The position numbers were made by a program, and so were the translations under genes. DNA of 64,000 bases from Parabacteroides sp. FAFU027 (lineage in GTDB: Bacteria; Bacteroidota; Bacteroidia; Bacteroidales; UBA7332). The stretch spans positions 310,001 through 374,000 of the forward strand of contig NZ_JAKZKV010000003.1 in assembly GCF_022808675.1 (NCBI RefSeq), given 5' to 3'. Position 1 is the stretch's first letter. Each line of letters opens with the position of its first letter. Positions 18,336-54,606 of this stretch are shown in pieces. The notes under the pieces were generated by a model. The model was not told the DNA's origin. It saw only the letters and a program-made list of their open reading frames with translations, and did not search any database.

Positions 18336-18629
18336 ATTCTGCGACTCACCGGAATTGAGCTACTACCGGGCAGAATTCTCCTGCGACCGACCAGAGTCCT
18401 TCTGCTACCGTACAGAATTGTTCTTCTACCGACTAAAGTAGTGCTGCGACTGACCCGAATTGAGCTACTACCGGGCAGAGTTCTCCTGCGACCGACCAGA
18501 GTCCGTCTGCTACCGTACAGAATTGTTCTTCTACCGACTAAAGTAGTGCTGCGAACGAGCCGAATCGAGCTACTACCGGGCAGAATCCACCTGCGACCGG
18601 ACTGAATTGTTCTGCGACCGACTAATATA
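18336..18629. repeat. Array of 14 imperfect 21-bp tandem repeats
   Basis: Fourteen consecutive 21-bp units fill the space from the base after the birA stop to 18629. The consensus is about STTCTGCGACCGACCAGAATT. Units 2-6 and 7-11 form a higher-order duplication of about 105 bp. Most units have weak dyad symmetry (TTCTG...CAGAA). Because 21 is a multiple of three, a 115-codon frame stays open on the minus strand (heptad repeats such as VGRRTIL). That frame runs through the terminator, so I do not call it a gene. Confidence 0.93.
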
Positions 18630-36860: not shown

Positions 36861-37112
36861 CATTGCGCAACCTGTGATCGTCATTGCGCAGGCGAAGAAT
36901 ATCATTGCGCGACTGAAGATGGTCATTGTGTGACCTGTGGAGATCAATGTGTGAGTAACAAATGCCATTGTGTCAGATGCGAAAGCCACTGTGCGACCGA
37001 CGAATGTCATTGTGTCAGTGTCGAAGGTCATTGTGCGACCGACTGAGACCACCGTATGATCGTCGGTGGTCACTGTGCGAATGTCGGAGGCCATTGTTTG
37101 ACCGTCGGAGCT
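36861..37112. repeat. Array of 12 imperfect 21-bp tandem repeats
   Basis: Twelve uninterrupted 21-bp units occupy 36861-37112, with a further degenerate unit on either side. The consensus is about CATTGTGCGACCGWCGAAGGT. The core TGCGACCGAC also occurs in the 18336-18629 array. The repeats keep frames open on both strands (His/Cys-rich on plus, Thr/Met-rich on minus), but no start, ribosome site or codon pattern supports a gene. The array lies between divergent genes, the alcohol dehydrogenase and ruvB. Confidence 0.93.
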
Positions 37113-37192
37113 CAATGCGATAGTTTTGTATTTTTAAGTTGAAGAATCCGTTCTCCTAAATTGATGACAGAAAGTTGTATTCCCTTTTTTCG

Positions 37193-52526: not shown

Positions 52527-53414
52527 ATGGTACACGATCACGAACATCATCACGAAATCAATCTGGATAATGCCTTTAAAATTGGTATTGCACTCAATAT
52601 TGTATTTACCATAATCGAAGTTGTCTACGGTTATCTCGCCAATTCGATGGCACTGGTAGCCGATGCTGGACACAACTTCAGCGACGTGCTGGCACTGGCA
52701 TTTTCCTGGATTGGCGTTATTCTCTCTCAGCGAAAACCGACTCTTCGCTTTACCTACGGATTCCGGCGTTCCACGATACTGATTGCATTGCTCAATACCG
52801 TCCTGCTACTGGTGGCCATCGGCTTTATCCTGTGGGAGACAATTCACCGGCTAGGCAAACCGCTGGAGATAAAATCACAGGATGTCATTCTGGTGGCGGC
52901 TATTGGTATTGTGATCAACGGTTTCACGGCATGGCTGTTTGTCAAAGGGAAAAAGAACGACCTAAACATCCGTAGCGCCTTTGTCCACTTTGTGGCCGAT
53001 GCGCTGGTATCGCTGGGCGTGGTAGTTGCCGGGGTGATTATAGCATTTACGGGTATTACCTGGATTGACTCGGTGGTTTCGTTTATCATCATTGCGGTGA
53101 TTCTCTACAGCACCGTCCACCTGTTGATTGATTCGGTCAATCTAGGCCTGGATGCCGTCCCCGAACACATTGATATCGAAGTGGTGCGCAAATACCTCGA
53201 AGCTTTACCCGAAGTATCAACCATTCACGACCTGCACATCTGGGCACTGAGTACGACCGATGCTGCCCTGACCGTTCACCTCAATACTTGTTGTGAAACA
53301 GATAATACCTTTATCTACGAAGTGCAAAAGCACCTGCATAACCATTTTCACATCGAACATGCTACGATTCAGATAGAGCAGGGAGATGAGAATTGCAGGA
53401 ATAATTGTAATTAA
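52527..53414 (+). CDS. czcD: Cation diffusion facilitator (CzcD/ZitB-like)
   Basis: A 295-residue inner-membrane proton/metal antiporter that exports Zn, Co or Cd to the periplasm, where the Czc pump takes it up. It has a His-rich N-terminus (MVHDHEHHHEINLD), six transmembrane helices with the metal-site motifs ADAGHNFSDVLAL (HNxxD) in TM2 and FVHFVADALVS (HxxxD) in TM5, and a C-terminal cytoplasmic dimer domain (HDLHIWALSTTDAALTVHL). It is 11 bp after the adaptor gene and last in the operon. A helically phased palindrome array follows. Confidence 0.93.
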   Translation: MVHDHEHHHEINLDNAFKIGIALNIVFTIIEVVYGYLANSMALVADAGHNFSDVLALAFSWIGVILSQRKPTLRFTYGFRRSTILIALLNTVLLLVAIGFILWETIHRLGKPLEIKSQDVILVAAIGIVINGFTAWLFVKGKKNDLNIRSAFVHFVADALVSLGVVVAGVIIAFTGITWIDSVVSFIIIAVILYSTVHLLIDSVNLGLDAVPEHIDIEVVRKYLEALPEVSTIHDLHIWALSTTDAALTVHLNTCCETDNTFIYEVQKHLHNHFHIEHATIQIEQGDENCRNNCN

Positions 53415-53492
53415 GTTTGTACCACAAAGAAATGCAAAGAAAACAGACAGATAGCCTCGAAGGGAAATTCTTCGGGGCTATCTTTTTTATCG

Positions 53493-53672
53493 TCCGACGT
53501 GTCGGAAAGTCCCACCACGAGCTGGGGAACCATTCCGACGCGTCGGATTCTTTGTTTTTGGTCAAAAAGAGACTTTCCGACGCGTCGGAATGTTCGCATG
53601 AGGGCTGGGCTGGCTTTCCGGCATGTCGGAATCATTGCCTGACCCCTCGGTGGAGGATTCCGACGCGTCGGA
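53493..53672. repeat. Phased palindrome array, class A (five copies)
   Basis: Five 14-bp palindromes of consensus TCCGACGCGTCGGA start at 53493, 53534, 53576, 53617 and 53659, so their spacing is 41, 42, 41, 42 bp. Copies 2, 3 and 5 are perfect. Weaker dyads lie near the midpoints (CCCA...TGGG near 53518, TTTTT...AAAAA centred at 53561.5). The array starts 78 bp after the CDF stop. Confidence 0.95.
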
Positions 53673-53740
53673 CACTCTGTTTTGGCCATTTTGGATGAAA
53701 AATCTTATTGGGAAAATGATTTCGCAAGCGAAGGAAGCCG

Positions 53741-53919
53741 TCCCAACGTTGGGAAAGTCTCCCTGGGGACTGGGGAAAGAATCCCAACGTTGGGAAAGTT
53801 CGCCTGAGCCCAAAAACTAACATTCCCAATCTTGGGAAAGTCCGCCCAGCATGTAGGCAAGGTTTCCCAAGGTTGGGAATGGCAGCCCGAGGGCTGGGCT
53901 GAGATTCCCAGGGTTGGGA
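53741..53919. repeat. Phased palindrome array, class B (five copies)
   Basis: Five 14-bp palindromes of consensus TCCCAACGTTGGGA start at 53741, 53782, 53824, 53865 and 53906 (spacing 41, 42, 41, 41). The first two are perfect. The gap from the last class A copy is 82 bp, two periods, so both classes are in register. A dyad TTCGCAAGCGAA is centred one half-period before the first copy, and weaker dyads lie at or near later midpoints (53851, 53889). No gene is seen in 53415-54102. Confidence 0.95.
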
Positions 53920-54036
53920 CGCATCAAATGGTAGTTAATTGCAAATATTACAGGCTCAATTATCCATTCTCTGTTCCCTTTTGAGATATTAAAGCGTTAT
54001 AAACGCGCCCCCTCTCGATTGAATCAAGAGGGATAA

Positions 54037-54078
54037 AAAAGCCGCCTAACCAGTACCATGACTGATTAAGCGGCTTTT
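54037..54078. terminator. Terminator between the palindrome array and the DUF3127 gene
   Basis: Thirteen bases at 54037-54049 pair with 54066-54078 with one mismatch. It has A-rich and T-rich flanks and so may serve both strands. A smaller imperfect hairpin precedes it at about 54011-54031. Confidence 0.75.
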
Positions 54079-54102
54079 CTATTTATCCTGAAACGATTTC
54101 GT

Positions 54103-54453
54103 TTAGAAAGGCATATCCTCGCCGGGAGCGTGTTGCAGGAAATCGGCAGGCTTCGGCTCGAAAGCAGGAGGAACAGCTCCGGCACCGGCAGCTACACGGG
54201 TTACATTCCAGGCACGTACATCGGTGTACCAGCGGCCGTTAAATTCGCGGCTCTCGATGTCGAAGTCCACTTTCAATTCTTCGTCCATCTGAATGGCAAA
54301 AGTATCGATCTTGTCTCCCCAGATGTTGAAACAAACTTTTTTAGGGTATTGTCCACCCATTTCGATGATGTAATCCTGTTTTTTCCAAACACCATTTTTT
54401 CCTTGTCCCGACTGAAGCGGCAGGATTTGAATGATTCTTCCTGTAAGTTCCAT
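54103..54453 (-). CDS. DUF3127 family, SSB-like OB-fold protein
   Basis: A 116-residue protein. Residues 1-88 (ELTGRIIQILPLQSGQGKNG, KKVCFNIWGDKIDTF) fit the DUF3127 family with a five-stranded OB-like pattern. A flexible Ala/Pro-rich tail ends in GEDMPF, similar to the acidic DDDIPF tip by which single-stranded DNA-binding protein recruits partners. A role with single-stranded DNA is inferred. It is transcribed alone, towards the terminator at 54037-54078. Confidence 0.85.
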   Translation of the reverse strand: MELTGRIIQILPLQSGQGKNGVWKKQDYIIEMGGQYPKKVCFNIWGDKIDTFAIQMDEELKVDFDIESREFNGRWYTDVRAWNVTRVAAGAGAVPPAFEPKPADFLQHAPGEDMPF

Positions 54454-54606
54454 ATAGTAAGTAATTAATTTATCGCGTTGTTGATCCCCTATTCAGGGGC
54501 AGGACGGCAAAGATAATTAATTTGAGGGAAGAAAAAAAGCCGTTAACTTTTCGTCCGGTTTTAACTTCATCCCTGAAATATCTTTACGCTTTCTCCTTCA
54601 AAAAAG

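Follow-up and report, generated by a model that had tools for sequence, protein, structure and literature searches.

Genome analysis of a 64,000-nucleotide window of Parabacteroides sp. FAFU027 (the window being the whole stretch of DNA analyzed, and the genome being called G000 below) led to a non-coding array of 427 bases at 53493..53919, in which ten 14-bp dyads follow one another with a mean step of 41.3 bp, about four turns of the double helix. From the comparative analysis we tentatively interpret the array as a discrete non-coding DNA element, dispersed in the genome, which would serve as a one-faced platform for a putative dimeric protein, with an architecture like that of sopC of plasmid F; we put the probability of this reading at about 0.4. 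It is plausible, though not proven, that the dyads are the sites of such a protein along one face of the helix.

Architecture and phasing of the array

The ten sites belong to two sequence classes, five of class A being followed by five of class B, and their starts are separated by 41, 42, 41, 42, 82, 41, 42, 41 and 41 bp. Five of them pair perfectly (7/7), namely the three class A palindromes TCCGACGCGTCGGA at 53534..53547, 53576..53589 and 53659..53672 and the two class B palindromes TCCCAACGTTGGGA at 53741..53754 and 53782..53795. Four have 6/7 pairs: in class A TCCGACGTGTCGGA (53493..53506), which carries CG at its outer flank, and TCCGGCATGTCGGA (53617..53630), and in class B TCCCAATCTTGGGA (53824..53837) and TCCCAAGGTTGGGA (53865..53878). 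The last site, TCCCAGGGTTGGGA of class B (53906..53919), has 5/7 pairs and likewise CG at the outer flank. All 14-mers of the window were scored for self-complementarity and chained at steps of 40-43 or 82-83 bp; nine sites were linked (the tenth, with 5/7 pairs, lies below the threshold), against a longest chain of 2 in 2000 shuffles of the intergenic region, and no second chain of three or more such dyads was detected in the 64-kb window. The places, steps and two classes reported for the ten palindromes in the initial annotation were all confirmed. It had also held that the register is kept across the 82-bp step, and this proved correct, as the linker at 53673..53740 lacks a single middle site of the lattice (expected near 53700); the same linker is kept in the congener treated below.

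The spacers of 27-28 nt are themselves weak dyads about their own centers, with 46% pairing against an expected 25% (24 spacers of six arrays), a level reached in none of 2000 shuffles. The weaker half-period dyads that had been annotated are therefore real as a group, and strong and weak dyads take turns along the element, one about every 20.7 bp. CGTCC/GGACG flanks are common to the array ends and are absent at inner units. A clustered regularly interspaced short palindromic repeat (CRISPR) array would have identical repeats and unique spacers of uniform length, whereas here the spacers are dyad-symmetric and partly alike.

Related arrays in the genome, the congener and other taxa

The assembly of G000 comprises 4.9 Mb in 35 contigs, of which a sample of 1.22 Mb (C3:1-394000, C4, C5 and C18) was surveyed. 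Arrays of class A or B were found at four loci of G000 and at two of the congener, G002. Apart from the array of the window, where class A precedes class B between the convergent genes czcD and DUF3127, one on C18 has the same order of classes and lies between the divergent uvrD/pcrA and sodB genes. One on C5 consists of class A, is located between codirectional nuoF-like and Fe-hydrogenase genes and enters the 3' end of the former, while the one on C4 consists of class B. At the hydrogenase locus (L017:5121-5180) the nuoF-like gene stops within the array, so that palindromes encode its final residues. The spacing is 41/42 bp throughout both genomes. In G002 the czcD and hydrogenase arrays are established at matching places, with a site number and every step identical to those of G000.

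Comparison of paralogous arrays revealed that palindromes diverge by 7-16% and spacers by 17-35%, i.e., two to three times less for the palindromes. Similarly, units within one array are 80-90% alike in their palindromes and 37-53% in their spacers. Palindromes are therefore the part kept over long times, in line with what the initial annotation had expected. The regular alternation of 41 and 42 bp is not independent evidence for a globally rigid lattice of 41.4 bp, since the alternating arrays are paralogues, and that idea was rejected.

Palindrome cores of classes A and B were counted 24 times inside arrays and never outside them in the surveyed sample, which bears on a kinship with repetitive extragenic palindromes (REPs) and bacterial interspersed mosaic elements (BIMEs), mobilized by a REP-associated tyrosine transposase (RAYT) of the Y1 type. 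Like REPs and BIMEs, the arrays are clustered intergenic palindromes, and their ends bear CGTC, the tag of one REP super-family (PMC3733652). Additionally, G000 has two clear Y1 transposase genes and six weak matches. However, no class A/B palindrome stands alone, the palindromes around the two clear Y1 genes are of other kinds, with no class A/B site within 3 kb (a check that covered the clear genes), and G001 has six Y1 matches yet few arrays. Membership was rejected on account of the transposase flanks and the lack of lone palindromes, and we consider this origin very improbable. A Y1 transposase gene at C4:178800-179600 of G000, flanked by palindromes of its own (CAGCTAAAGCTGGAGG at 31 bp, and GATTGGCCTTTAGGCCATTC), is likely a RAYT/REP system in its own right.

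The array also belongs to a wider population. About 45 intergenic tandem arrays remained in the sample after overlapping rows were merged, with almost none in coding DNA; their units measure 20.5-22 bp, close to two turns of B-DNA, or multiples thereof. The unit sequences are many, and a number of unit families have copies at a few loci. The class A and B palindromes are two families among several, and the array at 53493..53919 is of the most regular kind. Specifically, Tandem Repeats Finder returned intergenic periods (overlapping rows counted) of 21 (49), 42 (25), 22 (12), 63 (7) and 41 (6), then 84, 105 and 11 with few others, and almost no repeats in coding DNA. Distances between identical intergenic 7-mers peak at 42 (587), 21 (554), 105 (428), 84 (420) and 63 (419), followed by 126, over a median of 22, and lesser peaks stand at 41 (213), 123, 22 (144), 82 and 44; coding DNA presented just the codon period and small excesses. 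Genes flanking the arrays are arranged in tandem in 34 cases, divergently in 8 and convergently in 5, the same proportions as in the background (219, 76 and 43), and the arrays have no bias towards gene ends.

These distances also bear on protein-coding heptad repeats. Periods of 21 and 42 bp are divisible by three and open frames traverse many arrays, but with a step of 41 or 22 bp the reading frame changes from one unit to the next, and the 41/82/123 and 22/44/66 peaks are intergenic, so a codon origin is impossible for them. The heptads were discarded on these steps; chance is excluded by the shuffles, and the two together are extremely improbable as an explanation.

The other two arrays of the window are built of 21-bp units. 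The first (18339..18625, CTGCGACCGACYARAGTNG type) lies downstream of a biotin ligase gene, with a gene convergent with it on the other side; between G000 and G002 it has diverged as much as the ligase gene (14% and 15%), and its length in the two species differs by exactly one 21-bp unit. The second (36861..37118, GGTCATTGTGCGACCGTCGGAG type) lies between two divergent genes, with ruvB on the right, and is 97% identical in the two species together with its surroundings. A CCGAC word common to class A and these two arrays had been pointed out, but this link is weak, as they are different families with a 21-bp period.

For six further Bacteroidales genomes, 143-200 kb apiece were surveyed in the same way, as were 200 kb of Escherichia coli K-12. 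Peaks of the 21/42 type were also present in G003, of the same family, and in G107 and G196, of other families; they were slight in G001 and G293, and absent in the samples of G259 and E. coli K-12. Concerning the palindromes themselves, TCCGAC-NN-GTCGGA pairs were looked for in 84,980 species genomes at spacings of 40-43 bp only, which gave 34 stretches, mostly at 41 or 42 bp and with spacers unrelated to those of G000. Besides G002, the labelled taxa, both metagenome-assembled genomes (MAGs) and isolates, include Tannerella, Tannerellaceae, Parabacteroides, Hoylesella enoeca, Alistipes, Odoribacteraceae, Prevotellaceae, Saprospiraceae (pairs) and Verrucomicrobiales MAGs; an Actinomycetota MAG matched with one pair only. 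Pairs of TTCC-N8-GGAA were sought in 393 Bacteroidales genomes at 25-55 bp and filtered by inner pairing or identity. Among the matches listed, 9 filtered pairs stand at 32-33 bp, 23 at 41-42 bp and 3 at 51-52 bp, with none at 34-39 or 43-45 bp, counts that are indicative only because they cover the first places per genome and include some entries from a search restricted to 41-42 bp. The preferred distances would correspond to three, four and five helical turns, again as an indication only. The annotated phasing near four turns was thus reproduced in relatives and in unrelated palindrome families. Five genomes (G069, G087, G181, G265 and G288) have TTCC-N8-GGAA pairs exactly 32 bp apart with AT-rich spacers, which form a separate family at three helical turns.

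Helical-repeat multiples across many unit sequences, without dyads being required, are also what intrinsic DNA shape could produce: in-phase motifs would give the duplex a regular curve or writhe, which could shape the nucleoid or take up supercoiling with no sequence-specific protein involved, and cruciforms at the dyads would be the extreme form. For cruciform extrusion, arms of 5-7 bp are short. Moreover, shape leaves unexplained both the exact palindromes kept amid diverged spacers and the recurrence of TCCGAC-NN-GTCGGA in distant taxa, and we regard it as improbable.

Gene neighborhood and weighing of the explanations

To the left of the array lies czcD (52527..53414, + strand), a cation efflux gene of the cation diffusion facilitator type (PF01545, PF16916), and to the right, convergent with it, the DUF3127 gene (54103..54453, - strand; PF11325). 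A good intrinsic terminator of czcD (53449..53483, + strand) precedes the array, which is therefore not an obvious part of the czcD mRNA. This matters for the idea of an RNA element, a transcribed series of hairpins acting in mRNA stability, attenuation or termination or as a small RNA. The array strand does fold far better than shuffles (z = -9.8), as is expected of any palindrome chain, and several hairpins within it score terminator-like. Nevertheless, convergent, divergent and tandem gaps are occupied at background frequency, dyad mispairs have no strand preference (G-T 40 vs. A-C 38), none of six array loci matches an Rfam 15 family at gathering score, and hairpins offer no reason for steps of 41-42 bp. 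Since helical-repeat multiples are common to many sequence families, this explanation is hard to sustain and quite improbable. Conversely, the absent mispair excess and the absent gene-end bias are as expected for a role as duplex DNA. Transcription termination, which the initial annotation had suggested along with a centromere-like role, was rejected because the array lies beyond czcD's own terminator and the gene orientations equal the background; given these facts and the several array-bearing loci, neither suggestion finds support.

G000 and G002 (window positions 53490-54600 against L020) differ by about 19% in czcD and by 2-4% over the stretch that starts at the left edge of the array and takes in DUF3127. 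This low-divergence stretch is likely a recombination tract bounded by the array. G002 also carries, between the array and DUF3127, a two-gene cassette (AAA_21 ATPase and RloB-like; L020:5771-7688) that is absent in G000, and one edge of it coincides with the array end.

The chief rival to a protein platform is a selfish or neutral minisatellite, MITE-like (miniature inverted-repeat transposable element) or spread by recombination, without any role in the cell and with a unit length set by the mode of duplication (e.g., looping of helix-phased DNA or replication hairpins). We consider it a real possibility, although not the one we prefer. The same bacterial order includes MITEs with 41-nt and 23-nt tandem repeats in Porphyromonas gingivalis (PMC4596501). 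Further support comes from the turnover of arrays between species, the loss of exactly one 21-bp unit, the lack of an orientation preference, the several unit families with copies at few loci each, and the CGTCC/GGACG flanks placed at array ends and not at inner units. Against it, neutral decay should hit palindrome and spacer alike, whereas palindromes change two to three times less between paralogous arrays, and the site number and all steps of the class A/B arrays are identical in both species. The arrays also stop at palindromes and a CG flank that they have in common; the search for longer inverted ends and for target duplications was made by eye only. The better preservation of the palindromes agrees with selection or with a constraint on mobility; unit loss and species turnover fit a platform and a minisatellite alike.

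Several points weigh against a protein platform. Relatives had been expected in the initial annotation to keep the spacing and to keep palindromes better than spacers; the first part stood, but the second failed between the two closest species, where changes affect 7 of 210 palindrome columns and 17 of 397 spacer columns (p = 0.67). The czcD array itself has 19 differences in 427 positions between G000 and G002 and no indels, against 9 in 351 for the DUF3127 gene and 19% for czcD, and this low divergence does not demonstrate constraint, given that the DUF3127 side is equally similar and divergence changes abruptly along the locus. A claim of strong constraint relative to czcD third positions (p = 3e-37) was consequently withdrawn, as a recombination tract explains the low array divergence equally well. 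Furthermore, arrays come and go and single ones are dispensable: neither G001 nor G002 has an array at sodB, G001 retaining the uvrD-sodB pair around a short gap and G002 having a rearranged upstream side, and the biotin-ligase array lost one 21-bp unit between species; at these sodB sites the flanks are too diverged or rearranged to reveal any target-site duplication. No candidate binding protein was found, and the many unit sequences would require many proteins or one shape-reading protein. In a column-shuffle test about 45% of the arrays had significantly dyad-symmetric units, so that a significant dyad is missing in more than half. Finally, at a unit of 22 bp (11.0 bp per turn) the phase drifts along the array, so that any phasing there could hold only between neighbors.

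Likeness to known systems and biological meaning

Should the platform exist, a dimeric protein seated on the dyads would touch its neighbors every two or four turns, comparable to ParB/SopB in sopC or Rep on iterons. On this view the array would seed a local nucleoprotein complex by which intergenic DNA is organized, bridged or insulated; arrays would be born by tandem duplication of a unit, and whole arrays would spread to new intergenic places. In plasmid replication iterons, a direct repeat of about 20-22 bp recurs at every two turns. The present arrays differ from them in that no rep gene was seen adjoining those examined, and in occupying several dozen loci with many unit sequences. The geometry is that of the sopC/parS site of plasmid F, with twelve 43-bp tandem repeats and ten 16-bp inverted repeats bound by ParB/SopB (PMC6238139). 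The array likewise has one palindromic site per four turns, a likeness of geometry only, since sopC is a single plasmid locus beside sopAB, whereas at least four class A/B loci exist here in a chromosome assembly, with an alternating weaker dyad. No parA/parB was located beside the arrays examined, whose flanks are czcD/DUF3127, uvrD/pcrA-sodB and nuoF-like/Fe-hydrogenase.

The statement of the initial annotation that no named repeat family has such a layout overlooked the 41-nt MITE464/PgRS repeats of P. gingivalis. P. gingivalis has tandem repeats of 41 nt (MITE464/PgRS) and of 23 nt (BrickBuilt), and strain W83 was reported to carry repeats of 41, 23 and 22 nt; MITE464/PgRS and BrickBuilt are described as transposable elements with 12-nt terminal inverted repeats of the IS5 type, and no sequence matches outside P. 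gingivalis are reported, save BrickBuilt in P. gulae (PMC4596501). They share with our arrays the bacterial order, the intergenic position, a unit length (41 or 22-23 nt) close to two or four turns and about 10-20 copies per genome (PMC4596501). Our arrays are also intergenic tandem direct repeats of about 41 nt as in MITE464/PgRS, but the IS5-type terminal inverted repeats (GAGACTGTTGCA / TGCAACGGTCTC) were not seen at the four G000 arrays, the flanks being checked by eye only, and the array is for this reason not filed as a member. The repeats of P. gingivalis are the nearest precedents in the literature searched, the 41-nt ones being close but unrelated in sequence. Short intergenic direct repeats are also known as TAACTGA repeats from Beggiatoaceae, Cyanobacteria and some Bacteroidetes, with up to 43 copies in some of the latter two (PMC4679880), but these are one fixed heptamer, mostly just before start codons, and have no palindromes. 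A literature search that covered few subscription papers found no paper on helix-metered intergenic arrays as a genome-wide feature. The contig C5 of G000 additionally contains 46-47-nt repeats GTTGTGATTTGCTTTCAAAAATCTATCTTTATGGTGCGTAAGCACC with spacers of about 30 nt (L165:3010-3496 and C5:23405-23677), which look like a CRISPR array reminiscent of Bacteroidota type II-C.

Bacterial tandem repeats are usually seen as passive products of slippage, with an arbitrary unit length. Here, unit length tracks the DNA helix across many sequence families, and does so in several families of bacteria and probably in more than one phylum; slippage alone would not lead one to expect this. A broader proposal, which we find rather unlikely as it stands, would be that some Bacteroidales hold several dozen to hundreds of intergenic arrays of many unit sequences, metered at two turns of B-DNA and bound on one face by an unrecognized family of architectural proteins, the palindromic 41-bp arrays being their most regular form. 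If a protein does read the arrays, they would represent an overlooked class of nucleoid-organizing sites in Bacteroidales of the gut and the environment; otherwise, the helix must limit the ways in which repeats come about. Either outcome would provide a context for the P. gingivalis repeats of 41, 23 and 22 nt, and the helix-metered stretches hint at an unrecognized way of organizing intergenic DNA.
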